Positions 4,350-36,655 of a stretch of 36,949 nucleotides of DNA are shown piece after piece (within the stretch, counting starts at the first letter, position 1; each line of letters begins with the position of its first letter). The position numbers and the translations under genes were made by a program. The stretch is from Gammaproteobacteria bacterium (GTDB lineage: Bacteria; Pseudomonadota; Gammaproteobacteria; CAIRSR01), in the NCBI GenBank assembly GCA_963575715.1, contig CAUYTW010000099.1:1-36949 (forward strand). The letters run 5' to 3'. The notes below the pieces were generated by a model. That model ran no database searches. It was not told the origin of the DNA and saw only the letters and a list, made by a program, of their open reading frames with translations.

Positions 4350-4571
4350 GTAGTGGCCGAGGCAATACCATCAATCGTGCAATCCAGGCGCGTAATTCAT
4401 GGATAGCTTATCCATGGCCAAGCCACGAGAAGAACGATTGCGTCACTGTGCCGCTTACGGTCTGATAGCCGAGAAAGACCGGCAGCTGTAACGATTTTGC
4501 TATCCAAAGGGGCGGATAAAACCGTCCCCTTTCTTACCCGCCCTGCAGGGAGGAATTTTTCGGGGACACTG
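4350..4571 (+). repeat. Hairpin cassette B upstream of the hydrogenase protease gene
   Basis: The gap opens with a hairpin ATGGATA-GCT-TATCCAT near 4400. The cassette proper runs from about 4461 to 4571: left motif GAAAGACCGGCAGCT, an AACCGTCCCC stretch, the palindrome CCCTGCAGGG (4541-4550), then the tail TTTTTCGGGGACACTG, which abuts the ATG at 4572. It aligns with the copy before isp1 over its whole length. GGGGA, 5-9 bases before the ATG, is the only ribosome-binding-like sequence. A 25-codon frame (4414-4491, MAKPREERL...KDRQL) also lies here and may be fortuitous. Confidence 0.65.
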
Positions 4572-5054
4572 ATGAGCAAAATTTTAATATTAGCCATCGG
4601 TAATATTTTACTATCCGATGATGGTATCGGGATCCATATCCTTCGCGCATTGCAAAATCAAGTGGAATCTTGGGATGATGTATCGCTAATGGATGGAGGT
4701 ACATTGAGCTTTACGTTGGCAGCATCCATTGAAAAAACTGCAGCACTAATCGTGGTGGACGCCGCGCGACTTGAGGCTGAACCTGGTACTGTGCAGATTT
4801 TCTGTGGCGAGGAGATGGATCGCTTTCTTGCCAAGAGTCGCAAGTCCAGTGCGCATGAAGTGAATTTAATGGATCTAATGCTGATCGCACAGCTTGAAGG
4901 TTATTGGCCAGATTATCGAGCACTCGTAGCCATTCAACCAGAAAAAATGGAATGGGGGGAATTTCCGACGCATCGTGTCGCACTCGCGATACCTGTCGCC
5001 TGTCAGCGGATTAGGGAAATTATTGAGAATTGGCGTCGTAAATCACTTGATTGA
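4572..5054 (+). CDS. hynD: [NiFe] hydrogenase maturation endopeptidase
   Basis: A 160-residue member of peptidase family M52 (HyaD/HybD/HupD). It removes the C-terminal tail of the large subunit after nickel insertion. The N-terminus has the glycine motif AIGNILLSDDGIG. Asp16, Asp63 (in VVDAA) and His95 (in AHEVN) occupy the positions of the three nickel ligands of HybD (Glu/Asp, Asp, His). I chose ATG 4572 because the family starts there. A TTG at 4497 would read in frame through the upstream cassette and add 25 unrelated residues. It is the first gene of the hydrogenase cluster, and its expected substrate, the HynL tail, is encoded at the far end. Confidence 0.88.
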   Translation: MSKILILAIGNILLSDDGIGIHILRALQNQVESWDDVSLMDGGTLSFTLAASIEKTAALIVVDAARLEAEPGTVQIFCGEEMDRFLAKSRKSSAHEVNLMDLMLIAQLEGYWPDYRALVAIQPEKMEWGEFPTHRVALAIPVACQRIREIIENWRRKSLD

Positions 5055-5074
5055 GAGGCGTTTTCCTCAACTCT

Positions 5075-5330
5075 AGGCACTGAAAGCGGCAGCGGCAGAG
5101 AATCTTGAGGGCAGAACAAAACGTTTTTGCGCAAGGTTCAAAACACAGAACCAAGCTGCGTTGCAATTCTGGCGATGGGGGAGCGAATGCCGAAAGTCGC
5201 TTCGTCACCAGGCTATTTATGGGTTGACAGCCGTAAAAGAGCGGCAACCTTCATTTTACAGTCAACAAACAGGAGGACGGCGTTTCCTTCCCATGGCTAA
5301 AGCCAGTGGTTTGCGCGCCGAATTAGGATG
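5075..5330 (+). repeat. Long hairpin cassette A upstream of hynS
   Basis: Two modules fill the gap after hynD. The first (about 5075-5200) begins GGCACTGAAAGCGGC and is homologous to 30237-30110 on the minus strand. The second (5221-5330) is the cassette proper: GGGTTGACAGCC, a small GCCG/CGGC stem, AGGAGG at 5271-5276, the hairpin around CCATGGCTAAAGCC and the tail CGCGCCGAATTAGG, which ends flush at the hynS ATG. It matches the cassettes before the SPOR and LysM genes. A reading frame with no stop runs from about 5077 through the leader peptide. Confidence 0.7.
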
Positions 5331-5331
5331 A
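5293..5331 (+). CDS. Putative 12-residue leader peptide overlapping the hynS start
   Basis: ATG at 5293 opens MAKASGLRAELG, and its TGA (5329-5331) overlaps the hynS ATG (5328-5330) as ATGA. AGGAGG lies 16 bases upstream of the leader ATG, longer than usual. The ATG sits inside the cassette hairpin. The same peptide, spacing and overlap recur before the SPOR and LysM genes. hynS has no Shine-Dalgarno sequence of its own, so coupled translation is likely. Confidence 0.5.
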   Translation: MAKASGLRAELG

Positions 5332-6455
5332 ATGAACAATCCTTGGTTTTATTGGATCAGTTAGCGCAACATGGAATTTCCCGCCGCAAATTTTTAAGGT
5401 ATTGCGCCACCCTAGCCTCGCTAATGGCGTTACCACACTCGGCGGGGCGTGCCTTTGCCGAGGCACTTGTCAAGGCACCACGCCCGTCAGTTATCTGGCT
5501 TTCCTTTCAAGAATGCACTGGTTGTACTGAAGCAATTACTCGCTCGCATTCGCCTACCCTGGAGGGATTACTTTTTAATAGTATTTCTCTGGATTATCAC
5601 CATACCCTCCAGGCCGCTGCCGGTAATGCCGCCGAGGCCGCCCGCGAGGAAGCCATGAAAAGGCATTGGGGAAAATATTTGCTGGTGGTTGATGGATCAG
5701 TGCCAATGAAGGATGGTGGTATTTATTCCACGATTGCCGGAGTTTCCAATTACGATTTACTCATGGCGACTGCTAGGGGTGCCGCAGCGGTAATAGCCGT
5801 GGGTAGTTGCGCCGCTTTTGGTGGATTGCCCAAGGCGAATCCAAATCCTACCGGTGCGGTAGCTATTGCCGATTTAGTAAAGGATAAACCAGTGATCAAC
5901 CTTCCGGGTTGCCCACCCATCCCGGTCGTCATGACTGGCGTGCTTGCTTATTATCTTACCTTCGGCGCGTTACCTGAACTGGATACGATAGGAAGACCGA
6001 AATCTTTTTATGGAGAAACAATTCATGATCGATGCTATCGACGACCTTTTTATGATCAAGGAAAATTCGCCAAGAGTTTCGATGACGCAGGGGCACGTCA
6101 AGGTTGGTGTTTATTCGAACTAGGTTGCAAGGGACCGATCACCCATAACGCCTGCGCCACGGTAAAGTGGAATGATTCACTTTCATTTCCGATTGGTTCA
6201 GGGCACGGTTGTTTAGGGTGCTCTGAACCAGGTTTCTGGGACGGTGGTGATTTCTACCGTGCCTTGTCCCTGCCAGCCAACCCGCTAAATGACATGACTG
6301 GCTCAGTGGCGGTAGGGTTAGCTGTGGGAACGTCCATGGCGGTTTCCAATCGTTTGCTCAAAAAAATGGCGGTCGCTGTTCATACGCCAGCAGTACTGGC
6401 CGACCTAAAACAAGAAAAGTCAACTATTTCACCTTTAGAAGGGCGATGCTTGTGA
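5328..6455 (+). CDS. hynS: [NiFe] hydrogenase small subunit, Tat-exported
   Basis: A 375-residue small subunit that carries the electron-relay Fe-S clusters of an uptake hydrogenase. The twin-arginine signal SRRKFLRYC is at residues 18-26, with processing expected near residue 45. Cluster ligands are visible in order: ECTGCTE (Cys63, Cys66), VGSCAAFGG, NLPGCPPIP, HDRCYRRPFYD, GWCLFELGCKGPITHNAC and GHGCLGCSEPGFWD. Gene order (small subunit, Isp1, Isp2, large subunit) places it in the Isp-type group 1 hydrogenases such as Thiocapsa HynSL. The C-terminal 60 residues are mildly hydrophobic, without a clear anchor helix. The start is fixed by the Tat signal and by the ATGA overlap with the leader. 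Confidence 0.93.
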   Translation: MNEQSLVLLDQLAQHGISRRKFLRYCATLASLMALPHSAGRAFAEALVKAPRPSVIWLSFQECTGCTEAITRSHSPTLEGLLFNSISLDYHHTLQAAAGNAAEAAREEAMKRHWGKYLLVVDGSVPMKDGGIYSTIAGVSNYDLLMATARGAAAVIAVGSCAAFGGLPKANPNPTGAVAIADLVKDKPVINLPGCPPIPVVMTGVLAYYLTFGALPELDTIGRPKSFYGETIHDRCYRRPFYDQGKFAKSFDDAGARQGWCLFELGCKGPITHNACATVKWNDSLSFPIGSGHGCLGCSEPGFWDGGDFYRALSLPANPLNDMTGSVAVGLAVGTSMAVSNRLLKKMAVAVHTPAVLADLKQEKSTISPLEGRCL

Positions 6456-6502
6456 AAGCAGACATCACGGTTGACCAGCTTCATCACCTTGCGACGAGAT
6501 AC

Positions 6503-6616
6503 AGGCTGATCGTTGAGAAAGACCGGCAACTTTAAAAAAATTTTGCTATTCAAGGGGCGGAGAAAACCGTCCATTTTCTCCCCACCGTCAAGGGTGGGGT
6601 TTTTCGGGGACACTGA
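6503..6616 (+). repeat. Hairpin cassette B upstream of isp1
   Basis: The copy starts near GGCTGATCGTTGAGAAAGACC just after hynS, continues with CAAGGGGCGG and AAAACCGTCC, and has a strong stem CCCCACC-GTCAAG-GGTGGGG (6580-6599). It ends with the tail TTTTTCGGGGACACTGA directly before the isp1 ATG. The stem followed by T5 could also act as an intercistronic terminator or RNA stabiliser for the hynS 3' end. It is the closest relative of the cassette before hynD. Confidence 0.68.
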
Positions 6617-7276
6617 ATGAATGAACTCCAATTTCTCTCTTGGGTACGCGGTACCGGCTTACAAATCGCGGTAACGTTCTTTCTGATGGGAATGACCTGG
6701 CGACTGATTGAGATTTATACGTTGGGTCGTAAGGTGAGTCTCGCTGAATCACGTCACGTGAGCGGTGCTTCTGGCTGGCATACGATTTATCGGCGTTTTT
6801 TACCTCCAAAAGGCATGTTCCAATCCTCTCCAATCACTTATGCAGGTGGCTATGTGTTCCATATTGGTCTGGCCGTGGTATTTTTTCTATTTGCACCACA
6901 TATCAAACTAATTCAGGATATCACTGGTTTTTCCTGGAGCGCGCTACCCTCACGGATAATAGACATGGTAACCGTGATAACCTTAGCAGCGATGGTTGTG
7001 GTGATAGCGGATCGAATAAAATGTCCAACGAAGAGATTCTTATCTGGATTTAGTGAATATTTTGCATGGATAATTACTTTTTTACCCGTATTGACTGGTT
7101 ATCTAGCAGCGAATCATCTCCTATTTCCTTATACCAGCATGTTTGCCTTACATATCCTCAGTGTAGAATTATTATTAATCATGATTCCATTTACCAATCT
7201 AGTGCATGTCGCTACTGTATGGCCATCGCGTTGGTTTAATGGGGATGTCAATGGTCACCGTGGTGTTCCGGTCTAG
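6617..7276 (+). CDS. isp1: Isp1, integral membrane cytochrome b-like hydrogenase partner
   Basis: A 219-residue polytopic protein with about five membrane helices: near residues 15-33, 76-94, 115-135, 148-166 and 173-197. Histidines in YVFHIGL, FALHIL and NLVHVAT are candidate haem b ligands, as in NarI/DsrM-type subunits. In Isp-type hydrogenases Isp1 with Isp2 is thought to pass electrons from periplasmic HynS to the quinone pool or the cytoplasm. Position between hynS and isp2 supports the name. The start follows the cassette tail, with GGGGA six bases upstream; a second ATG four bases later is out of frame. Confidence 0.85.
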   Translation: MNELQFLSWVRGTGLQIAVTFFLMGMTWRLIEIYTLGRKVSLAESRHVSGASGWHTIYRRFLPPKGMFQSSPITYAGGYVFHIGLAVVFFLFAPHIKLIQDITGFSWSALPSRIIDMVTVITLAAMVVVIADRIKCPTKRFLSGFSEYFAWIITFLPVLTGYLAANHLLFPYTSMFALHILSVELLLIMIPFTNLVHVATVWPSRWFNGDVNGHRGVPV

Positions 7277-7295
7277 GAAAAACACTGGTAAATCA

Positions 7296-7447
7296 CCCTA
7301 CGGCTAAAGCCGGGGGCTTGAATAAAATTAAAGCCTGATTTACCAGCCTGAGCCACAAAACATCGTGTTTTGACTGACGGTTTTTTCCGCTAAAACCGTC
7401 TTCTTTCCTCCCCCATGGCTAAAGCCAGGGGTATCTCGGGGACAATA
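7296..7447 (+). repeat. Compound hairpin cassette upstream of isp2
   Basis: Four stems are stacked: CGGCT-AA-AGCCG (7301-7312), CAAAACA-TCG-TGTTTTG (7356-7372), GACGGTTTT-TTCCGCT-AAAACCGTC (7376-7400), and CCCC-ATGGCT-AA-AGCCA-GGGG (7411-7431). The tail TATCTCGGGGACAATA leads into the isp2 ATG. The last hairpin is the subfamily A type and the tail is type B, so this copy is a hybrid. The frame from the hairpin ATG (7415) runs in frame into isp2 as MAKARGISGTI. Confidence 0.65.
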
Positions 7448-8752
7448 ATGAGCGCTTCATTAAGCCGGGCGATTAATGTTCTGAAGGAAGTTATTGACGC
7501 TCCGATTGCTAGTTACTTTAATAGCTGCGTCCATTGTGGATTATGCGCTGAGGCCTGTCTATTTCACACCGAGACGGGAGATCCGAAGTATGCGCCCATT
7601 TATAAACTGGAACCACTACGCCGGATTTACGAGCAAGAGTATACCTTATTAGGCAGACTCGCAAAATTACTTGGATTGTCAAAACCAATTACAGACAAGG
7701 AATTATCATCGTGGCGAGAATTAGTTTATGACAGCTGCACGATGTGCGGTCGTTGTTCCTTGATTTGTCCGATGGGAAATGATCTTGTTTATATGATACG
7801 ACGACTTCGAGAAGGAATGGCGATTGCTGGCTATGCCCCACCTGGAGTCATTGAAGCCACCAGGCGCGCGGTCGAAATCGGCAGTCCGATGGGCATAAAA
7901 TTATCAGCACTTAAGGTGCAAATCGCTCATGTTCAGGCGGAAACTGGCTTAGAAGTACCATTGGATCGGGAAGGCGCGGAATATATGTTGATCCTTTCCT
8001 CTATGGAGATCATTAATTTCCCCGAGTTCATGGCCGCAATTGCTAAAATTATGCGTCAGGCGGGTAAAACTTGGACACTATGTTCAGAGGCGTTTGAGGC
8101 TACCAACAGCGGAATTCAAATCGGGGTTTCAGATATTGCCAAGATAATTGTTTCACGAATTGTCGCCGGAGCCGAGAAACTAAAGGTAAAAACGGTCATC
8201 AGCCCTGAATGTGGCCATGCCTTCACGGCTTTACGTTGGGAGGGACCTAATCTTATTGGTCGACCGTATCAATTCAAGGTTCAACATATTTTAGAAGTAT
8301 TGGATGAATTCCGTGAACAAGGTATTTTAAAAGTCTCCCGCCTGAAAGAAGGTCGATTCACGTTTCATGATCCGTGCCAAATTGTCAGAATGGGAGGAGT
8401 AATAGAACCTCAACGCAATTTGATGAAATTGTTGGTTCAAAAGTTTGTGGAGATGCCGGATTCAGAAAAATACAATTGGTGTTGCGGTGGCGGTGGCGGA
8501 GTATCGGCTAATGAAGATACTAAGGCATTACGGCTCGTAGCCTTCAAGCGTAAAAAGACTCAATTAGAGGCCATTAATGCGGATCACTTGGTAACTGCTT
8601 GCGCTAATTGTCGAATTATACTGGAGGAAGGAATAGAATATTATCGAATGGATCCACTTTTGCAAGGACTGACTGAACTAATCGCTGATAATTTAGTCAT
8701 GAACCCCACGACTAAAGCTGGAGTGGCTCTCTCGCGGGCATCCGATGACTGA
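7448..8752 (+). CDS. isp2: Isp2, HdrD/DsrK-like Fe-S protein of the hydrogenase
   Basis: A 434-residue protein with two ferredoxin-type [4Fe-4S] motifs: CVHCGLCAEAC at residues 27-37 and CTMCGRCSLICP near 98-109. Two cysteine-rich CCG domains follow, with HDPCQIVRMGG, CCGGGGGVSAN and TACANCRII. This is the architecture of heterodisulfide reductase HdrD and sulfite reduction protein DsrK, and of Isp2 in Thiocapsa-type hydrogenases. It is expected on the cytoplasmic face with Isp1. I prefer ATG 7448; ATG 7415 is in frame and would add 11 residues encoded by the upstream cassette, so the true N-terminus is uncertain. Confidence 0.88.
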   Translation: MSASLSRAINVLKEVIDAPIASYFNSCVHCGLCAEACLFHTETGDPKYAPIYKLEPLRRIYEQEYTLLGRLAKLLGLSKPITDKELSSWRELVYDSCTMCGRCSLICPMGNDLVYMIRRLREGMAIAGYAPPGVIEATRRAVEIGSPMGIKLSALKVQIAHVQAETGLEVPLDREGAEYMLILSSMEIINFPEFMAAIAKIMRQAGKTWTLCSEAFEATNSGIQIGVSDIAKIIVSRIVAGAEKLKVKTVISPECGHAFTALRWEGPNLIGRPYQFKVQHILEVLDEFREQGILKVSRLKEGRFTFHDPCQIVRMGGVIEPQRNLMKLLVQKFVEMPDSEKYNWCCGGGGGVSANEDTKALRLVAFKRKKTQLEAINADHLVTACANCRIILEEGIEYYRMDPLLQGLTELIADNLVMNPTTKAGVALSRASDD

Positions 8753-8770: not shown

Positions 8771-9220
8771 ATGAATATCACGAATGATAATGAATTCAAG
8801 GCTATCCTGAATGATTTGGATATAGTTCGGAAACGCAAGGTGGCGGCGGCTTTCGTGGAGAGTGTATTGCCCTTGTGTACTGATCCACGCGTCAACAACG
8901 TCATTGCTACAGCCAAGCGCGAAGGTGTCACAGAACTAGAGCTGATTGCTGCTTATCAAATGGCAAATACCGCGCGCGTAGAGAGTTTCTGTCACTGTGG
9001 AAAAGAAATAGACTGGCAAAATCAAGCCAGCCATTTTGTAGCCAGGGCCGCACTTGATTGTGTAAAGCCAGCGAAGGAAAACACCAATTTAGCCTGGGAT
9101 GCCGCAACGGATGCACGCATCGCCCGTAGCTGTCAAGGTATCGCTAACGGTGGTGAGTGTATTGAACAACGTGAATCCGAAAAACAGTATCTCATCCTTG
9201 CCGATTTCATGAGTCAATAG
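8771..9220 (+). CDS. Unknown protein between isp2 and hynL
   Basis: A 149-residue soluble-looking protein, charged and probably mostly helical, with no signal peptide or membrane segment. Cysteines occur at LPLCTD, FCHCGKE (a CxC pair), LDCVKP, SCQGI and GGECIE, so a metal or redox role is possible but unproven. It lies 18 bases after isp2 and 8 bases before hynL with no hairpin cassette between, so all three are surely cotranscribed. I do not recognise the family. It is not HyaE, HyaF, HypC or a b-type cytochrome by any motif I can see. Candidate roles are an accessory, assembly or extra relay subunit specific to this hydrogenase. Confidence 0.7.
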   Translation: MNITNDNEFKAILNDLDIVRKRKVAAAFVESVLPLCTDPRVNNVIATAKREGVTELELIAAYQMANTARVESFCHCGKEIDWQNQASHFVARAALDCVKPAKENTNLAWDAATDARIARSCQGIANGGECIEQRESEKQYLILADFMSQ

Positions 9221-9228
9221 GAAAAACT

Positions 9229-10995
9229 ATGGCCAGCACGCAACGGATCGTCGTGGATCCAGTTACTCGTATCGAAGGGCATTTACGTATTGAAGCGGAA
9301 ACGGATGATTCCGGGAATATTACCCACGCATCGAGTGCCGGCACCATGGTACGCGGTATTGAAATTATTCTGCGTGGTCGTGATCCCCGCGATGCTTGGG
9401 CTTATACACAACGAATTTGCGGCGTCTGCACTCTCGTCCATGCCATGGCCTCGATTCGGGCTGTGGAGGATGCACTGCATTATTCTATTCCAAAAAATGC
9501 TCAATTAATTCGCAATCTGATGATCGGAGCGCAATACATCCATGATCATGTCATGCATTTTTATCATTTACATGCACTGGATTGGGTGGACGTAGTCTCA
9601 GCCCTAAAAGCTGATCCAAAGGCTACATCGCAATTGGCTCAAAGCATTAGCGCCTGGCCGAAATCATCACCCGGCTATTTTTCGGATATGCAAAAGAAAA
9701 TTAAGGGGTTCGTAGAGTCTGGACAATTAGGTATTTTCGCTAATGGCTATTGGGGACATCCAGCGTATCAGTTGCCGCCCGAGGTGAATCTTTTAGCAGT
9801 CGCTCATTATCTGGAAGCGCTGGCTTGGCAGCGTGACGTAGTTAAATTGCATACTATTTTTGGTGGAAAAAATCCTCATCCCAATTTCGTAGTGGGAGGA
9901 GTGCCCTGCGCGATTAGTGTCAATCCTGATTTCCCCGATTCTGCCGTGCGTGGTGGTCAAGATGCCACAGCGCTTAACATGATAGGTTTACAGATTATTC
10001 AAAACGTTATTCATCAGATGCAGGAGTTTGTCGATCAAGTATATGTTCCCGATACCTTAGCAATCGCCAATTTTTATAAGGATTGGGGAGCACGGGGCGA
10101 GGGTTTGGGAAATTTTCTGTGCTATGGTGATTTACCTGAAAAGGATATGAATACACCAGATTCATTTTTATTTCCACGCGGAGTAATTTTGAATCGCAAT
10201 CTCGGTGAGATTCATCCTCTCGATCTTAATAACGCCGATGAGATTCAGGAATTCATCACTCATTCCTGGTACAAATATGGATCAGGTGACACCCACGGAC
10301 TTCATCCCTACGCTGGTGAAACAGAGCTACATTATACTGGCCCTAAACCACCCTATGAATATTTGGACACAGAAGCTAAATATTCTTGGCTCAAAAGCCC
10401 GCGTTGGAAAGGAAAATCCATGGAAGTCGGACCACTCGCACGGGTGTTGATGCTTTATGCCAAGGGCCATGAGCCAACTAAAGAATTAGTAACGATGACA
10501 TTATCTAAATTGGCGGTTGGTCCCGAGGCTCTTTTTTCAACCTTGGGACGCACCGCCGCTCGCACCCTGGAAACCAAAATTCTCGCGGATGCGATGCAGG
10601 GTTGGTTCGATAACTTGATTGCCAATATCAAGGCTGGGGATGTTCGGACTTTCAACGAAACTCACTGGGATCCGTCCACTTGGCCCAAAGAAGCGCGCGG
10701 AGTGGGTTTCACCGAAGCGCCACGGGGTGGATTAGCGCATTGGATTGTAATTCGGGATGGACGGATCGCCAATTATCAAGCAGTAGTTCCTAGCACCTGG
10801 AATGCCGGCCCGCGTGATGCACTTGGTCAACCTGGTGCCTACGAAGCAGCCTTGCAGGATCGTCATACGTTATTCGATCCCAAGCGTCCCATTGAAATTC
10901 TTCGTACCATTCACAGTTTCGATCCCTGCATTGCCTGTGCGGTGCATGTAACCGATCCCACCGGGGAAGAATTAGTTCAGGTAAAAATTACCTAA
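9229..10995 (+). CDS. hynL: [NiFe] hydrogenase large subunit
   Basis: A 588-residue subunit that houses the NiFe(CN)2CO active site. The N-terminus VVDPVTRIEGHLRIE is typical. The first nickel ligands are in RICGVC (Cys64, Cys67) and the second pair in DPCIACAVH (Cys567, Cys570, His573). The 15-residue tail beginning VTDPTGEE after His573 is the expected substrate of the maturation protease encoded at 4572. The length fits group 1 periplasmic uptake enzymes. It has no signal of its own and should travel with HynS through the Tat system. It ends the hydrogenase cluster, convergent with pabBC. Confidence 0.95.
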   Translation: MASTQRIVVDPVTRIEGHLRIEAETDDSGNITHASSAGTMVRGIEIILRGRDPRDAWAYTQRICGVCTLVHAMASIRAVEDALHYSIPKNAQLIRNLMIGAQYIHDHVMHFYHLHALDWVDVVSALKADPKATSQLAQSISAWPKSSPGYFSDMQKKIKGFVESGQLGIFANGYWGHPAYQLPPEVNLLAVAHYLEALAWQRDVVKLHTIFGGKNPHPNFVVGGVPCAISVNPDFPDSAVRGGQDATALNMIGLQIIQNVIHQMQEFVDQVYVPDTLAIANFYKDWGARGEGLGNFLCYGDLPEKDMNTPDSFLFPRGVILNRNLGEIHPLDLNNADEIQEFITHSWYKYGSGDTHGLHPYAGETELHYTGPKPPYEYLDTEAKYSWLKSPRWKGKSMEVGPLARVLMLYAKGHEPTKELVTMTLSKLAVGPEALFSTLGRTAARTLETKILADAMQGWFDNLIANIKAGDVRTFNETHWDPSTWPKEARGVGFTEAPRGGLAHWIVIRDGRIANYQAVVPSTWNAGPRDALGQPGAYEAALQDRHTLFDPKRPIEILRTIHSFDPCIACAVHVTDPTGEELVQVKIT

Positions 10996-17838: not shown

Positions 17839-17929
17839 AAAGTATCTCCAGAACATAGCTATTGTGGAAATTACGCTAACTTTAATCATTCTATACGAAG
17901 TGAAGTCGCAGAATCCATCTACATAGATT

Positions 17930-18165
17930 CTGCGTTCTGCGACTGCGCGCAGAATGACACGGGCGCTAACGCGTCCTCCGCGCAGAATGACAGAAAAAAA
18001 CTCAATCCTGTTAGGAGTTACGCAGTTGAAAAATAGGTTCAAAATTTTCAGTCAGTTACATCAGATACCTATCTGATGACTTTCCATGGAAATCAAACGA
18101 TTAAAATTCAACTGCGTAACTCCTATCCTGTATAGAGTTACAAATTCAACTGCGTAACTCCTAAA
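17930..18165 (+). repeat. Dispersed intergenic repeat, interrupted copy
   Basis: The repeat reads ATTCTGCG...CTGCGCGCAGAATG, GGCGCTAACGCGTCCTCCGC, GCAGAATGACAG, an A-run, CTCAATCCTG, then (after an inserted MITE) TATAGAGTTACAAATTCAAC and TGCGTAACTCCTAA. An uninterrupted copy lies at 29321-29416 in reverse and a 3'-truncated copy at 18268-18332. It lies directly upstream of the DUF1566 gene. The remaining DNA to 18267 holds CCCCTCTCCCTTTGGGAGAG, a short palindrome, and no gene. Confidence 0.75.
18012..18125. mobile_element. 114-bp MITE with 19-bp TIRs and target duplication
   Basis: TAGGAGTTACGCAGTTGAA (18012-18030) and its exact inverse (18107-18125) flank 76 bases that include a perfect hairpin ATCAGATA-CC-TATCTGAT (18060-18077). 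TCCTGT occurs on both sides (18006-18011 and 18126-18131), extendable to ATCCTGT. The empty site CTCAATCCTGTATAGAG is preserved in the copy at 29347-29363, read in reverse. There is no coding capacity, so it would have moved in trans. Confidence 0.8.
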
Positions 18166-18267
18166 CCTAATTAACTCAAGTTGCTAACTATTTGCCTTTC
18201 TCCCCTCTCCCTTTGGGAGAGGGGCTATTTGGTTATCCACCATAATAGGTAGCAACTTGGATTACTT

Positions 18268-18332
18268 ATAGAAATTCTGCGTTCTGCGACTGCGCGCAGA
18301 ATGGCACGGGCGCTAACGCGTCCTCCGCGCCT
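18268..18332 (+). repeat. Truncated dispersed repeat reaching into the Rpn gene
   Basis: It carries the ATTCTGCGTTCTGCGACTGC to CGTCCTCCGCGC part of the dispersed repeat and breaks off at 18330. The last codons and stop of the neighbouring Rpn gene (ARRTR, TAG at 18313-18315) are read from it, so it arrived at or in the 3' end of that gene. Confidence 0.7.
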
Positions 18333-19362
18333 TGATGCGTTTAATTTCGGCCAGAGCCGTTTCTTTTTCACGTAGTGCGAATTCCTTTTCTAGCATGGCT
18401 TGATTTTCACGCTGAAGGGCTGTTTCCTTCTCTTTCATAGCTGCTTCTTTCTCTTTCATAGCTGCTTCTTTCTCTTTCATAGCTGTTTCCTTTTCTTTTA
18501 TAGCTGCTTCCTTTTCTTTCATAGCTGTTTCTTTTTCTTTTATAGCTGCTTCCTTTTCTTGCAAAGCTTGATTTTCACGCTCAAGGGCTGCTTCCTTTTC
18601 CTTTAACGCTGCCTGTTCGCGCAATAACGCATGAAGTTTTTCTCTCCGCTCTTCATCCATTTCTCTCTGTATCGTTTTCTGCTCACGCAGGTAGTTCTGA
18701 CGAGCCTGATAGGCATGATAATTACGCTCCTTTTCGGAAAATTGACGCAAGGTGGTCATCGCCTGTTTCATCTCCAGGGTAGTCATCCAGTCGGGTAGTT
18801 CATCATCATCGAATTGTTCCGCTTTGTTAAAAAATTGCAACCAACGCTCTTGTTCATTTTTTACCACGCTTGCCTTGAATTTATTCAGTTCCAGCAACCA
18901 GATTCCACCATGATTCAACAATGTTCGACCTTTTGTATCGCGGAGCAGGTGACAAGCATGGATGTAGTCATTATCGGTTGCAATTAAATTTTCAGCCAGC
19001 AGCCAGATGGAATAGGTTGGTTTTAGCAGGCCATAATCATCGCCGCTTAGAAGCTGCTTGCTGTAAATATCCGCCCAAGTATAAAGAATTCTGGCTAGCA
19101 GCGAGCTGTGGCTAATCATCTGGATTTCAATTTGATATATTTGTTTCCGCTCATCCCTAGCTTTGACATCGACGATGCTGAGTTTATCGTCAAGAAATTC
19201 CTTTTCGTTATAGGGATTAAGGATTTCAACGGTGGTGATTGGAGCAGCTAGGTCACCTGCGAGGATGGCGTTGAGAAAATGCGCAAGAAGGTTGCGATTT
19301 TTCCGCGAGCCAAGCAGCGCCTTAAAGACACAATCAATTTTTGGATCTATTCTGTGTTTCAT
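18313..19362 (-). CDS. Rpn-family PD-(D/E)XK putative transposase/nuclease with coiled-coil tail
   Basis: A 349-residue protein. The N-terminal domain (residues 1-200) has DPKIDCVFKALLGS, FLNAIL, and the nuclease core LSIVDVKARDERKQIYQIEIQ, with Asp65, Glu79 and Gln81 in the D...ExQ pattern of the Rpn/transposase_31 group. These proteins promote RecA-independent recombination in E. coli. Residues about 220-335 are an extreme coiled coil built of 7-residue units (KEKEAAM and KEKETAM types). The last five residues come from a dispersed repeat, so the original C-terminus may have been different. The start ATG at 19362 has no strong ribosome site. It stands alone between repeat DNA and a GNAT gene, typical of accessory genes. 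Confidence 0.82.
   Translation of the reverse strand: MKHRIDPKIDCVFKALLGSRKNRNLLAHFLNAILAGDLAAPITTVEILNPYNEKEFLDDKLSIVDVKARDERKQIYQIEIQMISHSSLLARILYTWADIYSKQLLSGDDYGLLKPTYSIWLLAENLIATDNDYIHACHLLRDTKGRTLLNHGGIWLLELNKFKASVVKNEQERWLQFFNKAEQFDDDELPDWMTTLEMKQAMTTLRQFSEKERNYHAYQARQNYLREQKTIQREMDEERREKLHALLREQAALKEKEAALERENQALQEKEAAIKEKETAMKEKEAAIKEKETAMKEKEAAMKEKEAAMKEKETALQRENQAMLEKEFALREKETALAEIKRIKARRTR
18419..18565 (-). repeat. 21-bp tandem repeat inside the Rpn gene
   Basis: About seven 21-base units (AGCTGCTTCTTTCTCTTTCAT on the plus strand lacks only minor changes) encode the heptads of the coiled coil. Two adjacent units are identical and others differ at C/T positions, pointing to recent expansion by slippage. 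Because the unit is 21 bases, length changes keep frame and add one heptad each. Confidence 0.85.
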
Positions 19363-24624: not shown

Positions 24625-24738
24625 GGTTGACAGCCGGGAAAGACCGGCAACTTCACTTCAACTTCAACAGCAAGAAAAAACAGGAGGCGGCGCTTTCTCC
24701 CCCATGGCTCAAGCCAGGGGTTTCCGCGCTGAATTTGG
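24625..24738 (+). repeat. Hairpin cassette A upstream of the SPOR gene
   Basis: It opens with GGGTTGACAGCCGGGAAAG and a GCCGG-GAAAGA-CCGGC stem. AGGAGG lies at 24682-24687, the hairpin CCCC-ATGGCT-CA-AGCCA-GGGG (with a bulged A) at about 24700-24720, and the tail TTTCCGCGCTGAATTTGG touches the ATG at 24739. It is about 94% identical over some 112 bases to the cassette before the LysM gene. TTGACA resembles a -35 box, but no matching -10 is present. Confidence 0.78.
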
Positions 24739-24742
24739 ATGA
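24704..24742 (+). CDS. Putative 12-residue leader peptide overlapping the SPOR start
   Basis: MAQARGFRAEFG runs from ATG 24704 to TGA 24740-24742, overlapping the SPOR ATG (24739-24741) as ATGA. AGGAGG is 16 bases upstream, as in the hynS and LysM copies. The downstream gene lacks its own Shine-Dalgarno sequence. Confidence 0.5.
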   Translation: MAQARGFRAEFG

Positions 24743-29231: not shown

Positions 29232-29320
29232 GTGAATGGATGTTCGGGATGACTTCATAGAAACCAAAATGGGGGCACCATTGCAAGTTTCAAGAGCCAC
29301 TACTAAGTAACTTATAGCGT

Positions 29321-29416
29321 TAGGAGTTACGCAGTTAAATTTGTAACTCTATACAGGATTGAGTTTTTTCTGTCATTCTGCGCGGAGGTCGCGTTAGCGA
29401 CCGGAGTCGCAGAATA
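29321..29416 (-). repeat. Dispersed intergenic repeat, uninterrupted copy
   Basis: This is the reverse-oriented counterpart of 17930-18165 without the MITE: it reads on the minus strand from the CTGCGACTCC end through GCAGAATGACAG and CTCAATCCTGTATAGAG to CTGCGTAACTCCTA. It serves as the empty-site reference for the MITE at 18012. It lies just beyond the end of the carbonic anhydrase gene. Confidence 0.75.
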
Positions 29417-30057: not shown

Positions 30058-30237
30058 CATCAGTGTCTCCGAGAAACCTCGTCCTTTAGGGTGGACGGTT
30101 TTAACGGAACCTTTCGGCCCGCTCCCCTCGCCAATGTTGCAATGCAGCTTTTAGTTTTTGCGAACTTTGCAGCAGACCGTTTCGTAGTTACCCGCACCGT
30201 GTCTGCATCCGCCGCTTTCAGTGCTTGGAGTTGAGGA
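30058..30237 (-). repeat. Long hairpin cassette B upstream of the carbonic anhydrase gene
   Basis: Read on the minus strand it begins GCACTGAAAGCGGCGGATGC, continues with GCTGCATTGCAACATTGGCG and AGCGGGCCGAAAGG, then an imperfect CCACCCTAAAGG hairpin, and ends with the tail GGTTTCTCGGAGACACTGAT. The first 120 bases are homologous to 5075-5200 upstream of hynS. A 55-codon open frame runs through it. The tail is not flush with a known gene; the carbonic anhydrase ATG is about 85 bases further on. Confidence 0.6.
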
Positions 30238-30323
30238 AGCGCCCCAAGGTGAGCTCCTGCGACTGCGCGCAGGACAAGCTTTTACTTCGTTGCAACGTAG
30301 TTCGATTTCTTGAACTAAAGCTG

Positions 30324-30377
30324 GTCAATCTCGGACTTGTTTTCACAAGTCCCGCCCTTTAGGGCGGGGTGATTGAC
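30324..30377. repeat. Stacked hairpins inside a 7-bp inverted repeat
   Basis: GTCAATC (30324-30330) and GATTGAC (30371-30377) enclose ACTTGT-TTTC-ACAAGT (30335-30350) and the perfect CCCGCCCT-TT-AGGGCGGG (30351-30368). The last is like the CCCACCCTAAAGGGTGGG type of IS200/IS605 ends. No transposase gene is present. Confidence 0.5.
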
Positions 30378-31023: not shown

Positions 31024-31138
31024 GACAAAACTCCGGTTAAAATTTATAAAAAAATTAGCAAAGAATCCTGCAATTTCGAAGAGTTGCAGGAATGAATACC
31101 GACAAATCCACGCTTACCGAATGCCCGCGATAGAGCCA

Positions 31139-31217
31139 CCCATGGCTTTAGCCATGGTAAGGAAAGCGAGCGGTTTTCAAGCGTCAGTAAAAACCGGTCT
31201 TTCCCAGCTGTCAGCCT
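31139..31217 (-). repeat. Hairpin cassette upstream of the DUF2892 gene
   Basis: On the minus strand GGCTGACAGCTGGGAAAGACC is followed about 45 bases later by the perfect palindrome CCATGGCT-AA-AGCCATGG (31140-31157). The ATG in the hairpin opens a frame MAKAMGGSIAGIR that ends in TAA far from the gene, so the leader overlap is lost. The rest of 31218-31482, to the topA stop, holds nothing I can assign. Confidence 0.6.
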
Positions 31218-31482
31218 GTAAAGGCGGCTCGGGCGCTATCGTCCTCCACGCGCATTACGTTCGTGGCCTCTCGCCCGTAGCGACTTAATCGTCGACGCTG
31301 CCGGGGGTTTTACCTGATCTTCCGGGTCTTATTGACAGAACCGCATACCCTAACCCCACTCTAACCATAACACCCTCCAACGGTGCAGACAATCACCAAA
31401 ATCTGCCGACGACCGCCCTGCTTCACTACTACGCTTCGCAATGGCTTACATCGTCACAGTCGCTTGCCATCCATGGCGCGCT

Positions 31483-36537: not shown

Positions 36538-36572
36538 CCAAATTCGGCGCGGAAACCGCTGGCTTTAGCCAT
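36534..36572 (-). CDS. Putative 12-residue leader peptide overlapping the LysM gene start
   Basis: MAKASGFRAEFG is read from ATG 36572 to TGA 36536-36534, overlapping the LysM gene ATG (36537-36535) as ATGA. AGGAGG (36594-36589 on the minus strand) is 16 bases before the leader ATG, as in the hynS and SPOR copies. Confidence 0.5.
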   Translation of the reverse strand: MAKASGFRAEFG

Positions 36573-36655
36573 GGGGGAGGAAGCGCCGCCTCCTGTTTTT
36601 TCTTGCTATTGAAGTTGAAGTGAAGTTGTCGGTCTTTCCCGGCTGTACAGCCCTT
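36535..36655 (-). repeat. Hairpin cassette A upstream of the LysM gene
   Basis: On the minus strand: GTACAGCCGGGAAAGACCG, ACAACTTCACTTCAACTTCA, an A-run, AGGAGGCGGCGC, the CCCCATGGCTAAAGCC hairpin and the tail TTTCCGCGCCGAATTTGG at the ATG. It is nearly identical to the copy before the SPOR gene and ends at the same base relative to the start codon. Beyond it, 36656-36869 has no gene; ACCACCTTGC (36673-36682) and its near-inverse GCAAGGTGGG (36808-36817) form a long-range inverted repeat. Confidence 0.78.

Follow-up and report, generated by a model that had tools for sequence, protein, structure and literature searches.

IscB/HEARO transposon remnants as probable translation leaders of hydrogenase genes

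We analysed a window of 36,949 nucleotides from a gammaproteobacterial genome (G000; 3.70 Mb in 363 contigs) in which four genes of a hydrogenase (hyn) operon are each preceded by a DNA cassette. Judged by their alignments, these cassettes are deletion derivatives of a non-autonomous IscB/HEARO (omega-RNA) transposon of the IS200/IS605 type, about 380 nt long, so that each of hynD, hynS, isp1 and isp2 now stands, on this assignment, behind an element-derived leader. The explanation that we favour, and consider likely, is that transposon remnants were placed directly 5′ of the tetranucleotide ATGA and that their right end now serves as a translation leader.

The hyn operon and its four cassettes

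The operon lies on the plus strand and begins with hynD (4572..5054), a hydrogenase maturation protease (TIGR00072, 4e-36), followed by hynS (5328..6455), the NiFe hydrogenase small subunit (TIGR00391, 3e-124), isp1 (6617..7276), a membrane cytochrome b-like subunit resembling TmcC/HmcE (NF045723, 1e-34), and isp2 (7448..8752), a DsrK/HmcF-like Fe-S (CCG) subunit (NF045796, 1.5e-68; PF02754). Downstream are orfX (8771..9220), a conserved gene that gave no Pfam or NCBIfam match and that some 40 related operons also place between isp2 and hynL, and hynL (9229..10995), the NiFe hydrogenase large subunit (NF007550, 1e-212). Neither carries a cassette; orfX starts with ATGA and hynL with ATGG. The NCBIfam profile matches bear out the gene names of the initial annotation, which had also described cassette-filled spacers before the first four genes and close packing after isp2. 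Remeasuring confirms this layout: the spacers are 222 nt between a lysA-like gene and hynD, 273 nt between hynD and hynS, 161 nt between hynS and isp1 and 171 nt between isp1 and isp2, each terminating in a structured element that touches the start codon, and the following gaps are 18 nt (isp2-orfX) and 8 nt (orfX-hynL). The distance of 138 nt given earlier for isp1-isp2 has to be corrected, since it rested on an ATG at 7415 inside the cassette; this start was rejected in favour of the one conserved with relatives, at 7448.

The right ends of these elements fall into three classes, A (...CGGRGACAnTG), B (...GCGCCGAATTTGG) and C (...GCGGGCATTTG), and the operon cassettes, all on the plus strand, show 75-89% identity to full elements along defined segments. 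Cassette S1 (4439..4571), a 5′-truncated class A copy whose right end CGGGGACACTG touches the ATGA of hynD, corresponds to the final ~131 nt of a 377-nt element in blastn comparisons with full elements of the same genome (81% identity; nhmmer class A, E 4e-14). Cassette S2 (5063..5327), a 5′-truncated class B copy ending in GCGCCGAATTAGG at the ATGA of hynS, matches positions 116-380 of a 385-nt full element (blastn 75%, nhmmer class B 2e-19) and contains the 3′ part of HEARO, the basal hairpin and an AGGAGG some 59 nt before the hynS start. Cassette S3 (6504..6616), again a 5′-truncated class A copy, ends in CGGGGACACTGA at the ATGA of isp1 and matches positions 267-377 of a 377-nt element (blastn 82%). 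Cassette S4 (7288..7447) is a class A mini-element that keeps both ends around an internal deletion, matching positions 1-77 and 259-338 of a 339-nt copy (blastn); when its flanks are joined, TAGGAAAAACACTG|ATGAGC reads as an ordinary short gap with an AGGA motif.

Just before S3, positions 6456-6503 hold a HEARO-like fragment, GGTTGACCAGC. The stop codon of hynS lies within HEARO-like sequence (window 6440-6503, CTTGTGAA...GGTTGACCAGC), and the element may therefore have supplied the 3′ end of hynS.

The element family and the empty operons of relatives

Assignment of the cassettes to IscB/IS200-IS605 remnants follows from the alignment of the spacers to full elements, from a class A copy elsewhere in the genome that retains an IscB fragment, and from the similar right end of an intact autonomous element. 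Copies number in the hundreds, with 129 HEARO matches (Rfam), 63 of them above the gathering score of 83 bits and the best at 166 bits, and about 200 genome-wide matches to the right-end motif; there are also four Y1 transposase matches and five IscB RRXRR matches. A full element of ~380 nt runs from GTCAAyCACCCC (the HEARO 5′ helix) through TTGGCGAGGGGAGCC and GACAGCCGGGAAAGACCGGC to a two-stem right end. The same two-stem architecture was recognized by inspection in the intact autonomous HEARO-IscB-TnpA element of contig C351 (L062, L065), in which the right end is followed by ATAA, not ATGA. We also sought an autonomous element bordering ATGA, and found no matching right end near the Y1 genes of contig C342. 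Short TnpB zinc-ribbon fragments occur at 21 places in the genome and are traces of decayed TnpB elements.

Other members of the family lie in the window itself. A class A element on the minus strand (30061..30377), with its right end at a non-start ATGA, contains a full HEARO RNA (RF02033, 30116-30377, 91 bits, above the gathering score). Class B cassettes touch the ATGA starts of a SPOR-domain gene (24625..24738, plus strand) and of a gene with a SafA/ExsA-type domain (36538..36646, minus strand), and the latter copy is a 95% inverted-repeat match to the copy at 24630-24742. A class C element lies at 31118-31225 on the minus strand, with the right end GCGGGCATTCG. The window carries further repeats: a dispersed family at 17920-18330 and 29315-29403 (GTTAGGAGTTACGCAGTTGAA and CGGGCGCTAACGCGTCCTCCGCGCAGAATGACAG), 21-nt tandem repeats at 18345-18617 within an open frame on the minus strand (18313-19362), and 15-nt tandem repeats (GCTGGTGCTGCCACC) at 1-142, inside a minus-strand gene.

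HEARO homology, together with the IscB genes of the genome, would fit a role of the cassettes as working guide RNAs (omega RNAs) that serve IscB or a TldR-like repressor in trans. We regard this as highly improbable for the operon copies, because truncation or deletion has affected the HEARO scaffold of every one: none attains the RF02033 gathering cut-off, and S4 alone scores at all, weakly (31 bits, E 6.6e-4).

The initial annotation had proposed serial insertion and comparison with a cassette-free relative. Both are well served by a genome of the same genus (G001), whose hyn operon has the same genes, spacers of 55/12/65/74/8 nt and no element, and by the lack of class A/B elements at any of 84 related loci. 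The operon of a member of the same family (G003), with spacers of 12/13/42/41/-4 nt, is likewise element-free, and empty hyn operon sites were found in G001, in G003 and in a sister genus (G002). In G001, hynS, isp1, isp2 and orfX start with ATGA, hynD with GTGA and hynL with ATGG; thus three of the four starts occupied in the window are already ATGA in the congener, and hynL, with its ATGG, stays free. A search of 369 genomes of the class finds the exact right-end motif in G000, G001 and G002 alone, and G003 gave no match to HEARO or to the right-end motif. The further claim that genes of other Isp-type operons are close together is borne out by hynS-isp1 (median gap 1 nt) and by most isp1-isp2 pairs (median gap -4 nt, yet at least 100 nt in 19 of 77), but fails for hynD-hynS (median 437 nt).

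It was suggested earlier that the cassettes are regulatory leaders specific to this operon, each selected for hydrogenase subunit stoichiometry or mRNA stability. Four different element types or deletion forms do precede four consecutive genes, terminator-like hairpins lie at 4509 and 6580, and the isp1-isp2 cassette folds much better than its shuffles (z -4.4 and -3.1). We nevertheless consider the suggestion unlikely, given that many unrelated genes have these elements in front of them too, that relatives have the operon without cassettes and that there is no excess of clustering. A permutation test that assumes the genomic rate, at which roughly one ATGA-start gene in four has an element, yields p about 0.11 for four cassettes in one operon, which is not beyond chance. 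Nor is it more probable that a separate transcript begins in each cassette; we give this even less credence. S3 holds one weak promoter-like match (6513-6541, 9/12), but such matches lie mostly outside the cassettes and their number (11 vs 7.8 in shuffles, sd 2.5) is not clearly higher than expected. Taken with the remaining three operon spacers, which on their own fold no better than shuffles (z -0.3 to -1.4), the chance test and the lack of clear promoter enrichment leave operon-specific tuning unsupported. Since the cassettes belong to a genome-wide mobile family, no operon-specific role is needed to explain them.

The ATGA target and its enrichment at gene starts

ATGA follows nearly all class A and B right ends, and GTGA follows class C; HEARO integration beside ATGA or GTGA is said to have been noted already by Weinberg in 2009. 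Because the element targets ATGA, every ATG start codon followed by A offers it a ready-made site. In 770 kb of contigs picked from those with matches, an element lay exactly at the start of 42 of 208 ATGA genes, compared with 0 of 242 ATG[C/G/T] genes and 0 of 26 GTGA genes. In this genome class C copies border GTGA, and none of 13 is at a gene start. Gene starts were taken from a home-made coding-potential caller, with one rule applied to all genomes, elements and controls alike.

Non-coding junctions are at gene starts in 58 of 92 cases (63%) in G000, against 24% of element-free non-coding ATGA (OR 5.5, p 2e-14). The corresponding figures are 10 of 22 (45%) against 23% in G001 (p 0.02) and 17 of 21 (81%) against 26% in G002 (OR 12, p 5e-7). 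The enrichment at starts over non-coding ATGA is 3- to 12-fold, and it could reflect an insertion preference instead of retention. Furthermore, the left end is missing in 45 of 58 copies at starts, compared with 18 of 34 non-start copies (p 0.02), a more frequent loss that would be expected were the right end retained to act as a leader.

The main competitor to our explanation is that the elements are purely selfish, and that ATGA specificity and purging from genes leave copies at starts without any new control of the hydrogenase genes. ATGA is indeed all that the junctions have in common, few insertions fall within genes (4 of 96, though most ATGA sites are intragenic), four cassettes in one operon are within chance, and the young copies of G001, near-identical, 377-395 nt long and with clean flanks, are enriched only mildly at starts. 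Against it stand the size of the start enrichment and the tendency of copies at starts to keep their right end and lose their left, as well as the position of essential-type genes. For dapC and gltA, the conserved N-terminus or homology starts precisely where an element ends, at the junction, which implies that translation would initiate directly there; both sites are empty in G001. With such genes depending on initiation immediately after the element, we find the purely selfish account somewhat improbable, though it keeps appreciable weight.

Right ends as candidate translation leaders

Class A right ends present an SD-like sequence 5-9 nt from the host start, which class B ends do not have linearly. 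Median anti-SD energies are -6.6 kcal/mol for class A, -3.8 for ordinary genes, -2.2 for random ATGA and -0.1 for class B, and energies of -4 kcal/mol or lower are reached by 94% of class A ends, about 50% of ordinary genes and 5% of class B ends. The class A GGAG/GGGG doubles as the 3′ arm of a basal stem, GTCYCC/GGRGAC. Gaps in the MAFFT alignments of the right ends kept RNAalifold from yielding a consensus, and we therefore used arm pairing and a 2x2 covariation test instead: GGGGAC is found opposite GTCCCC, and GGAGAC opposite GTCTCC (p 9e-5). The swapped-arm control is weak, with 0.915 for the observed arms and 0.902 for the swapped ones, since most arms are GC-rich and interchangeable. 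In the predicted fold the class A SD is mostly paired, with an unpaired probability of 0.17-0.19 at its first two bases, and translation from these ends may be reduced as a result. For S1 and S3, on the other hand, the predicted fold has an upstream hairpin, in which GGGGCGG pairs with CCGTCCCC (S1) or CCGTCC (S3), and the SD lies outside the GTCYCC stem. In class B, most copies have AGGAGG at about -59 and a hairpin in the stretch that separates it from the start; a mini-ORF of 12-13 codons, its TGA overlapping ATGA in 18 of 35 copies, is lost in diverged ones.

These features suggest how a transposon end could become a leader. The non-autonomous element, presumably mobilised in trans by a Y1 transposase, would insert directly 5′ of ATGA, as seen in the junctions, sparing the start codon and displacing the native ribosome-binding site by about 100-400 nt. 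A class A right end would then substitute its own GGAG/GGGG, present in the sequence at the correct distance, for use by the ribosome. This signal could be sequestered in the basal stem; in some copies the hairpin of GGGGCGG with CCGTCCCC is predicted to compete for the 5′ arm and so to free the SD, and the end might switch between the two states. For class B, either of two rival routes could drive initiation: the conserved AGGAGG is probably moved near the start by the bridging hairpin, or ribosomes may re-initiate after a mini-ORF of 12 codons. Once at a start codon, the right end would be kept and the rest of the element would erode as that end becomes the translation leader of the gene, a process that we infer for hynD, hynS, isp1 and isp2. 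A local effect of the cassettes on the hyn genes is plausible, given that a cassette has replaced the native ribosome-binding site.

The family shares with the HEARO RNA (RF02033)/IscB omega RNA system its full copies of up to 166 bits, the 5′ helix, IscB and TnpA, the boundaries and the ATGA/GTGA junctions; the operon copies differ from it in being right-end remnants fused to start codons, without an ORF or most of the RNA scaffold. Like non-autonomous Y1 elements of the PATE/REP type, ours have no ORF, hairpin ends, high copy number and no target duplication at clean insertions, but they target ATGA, and the end that is kept places a Shine-Dalgarno-like sequence before host genes. TldR proteins are nuclease-dead TnpB regulators with guide RNAs, an example of domesticated IS605-type transposon parts that affect host genes. 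The hyn cassettes would be comparable in this respect; unlike TldR, they have no protein or intact guide RNA, and would act, if at all, in cis on translation. A literature search for start-codon-targeting miniature IS605 elements returned nothing relevant.

IscB-type elements have been studied as Cas9 ancestors, and the effect of their solo ends on host genes is little described. Landing on start codons and substituting the host translation signal would explain how a high copy number is tolerated. The many copies are natural replicate experiments in which transposon ends turn into host regulatory sequence, and the cassette-free G003, of the same family, makes the comparison direct. More tentatively, and with less confidence than for the leaders themselves, we suggest that this transposon lineage uses start codons as safe harbours through its ATGA target and its own ribosome-binding site, lockable by alternative hairpins. 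A sizeable share of the genes of one family may then be translated from such leaders and could be co-regulated.
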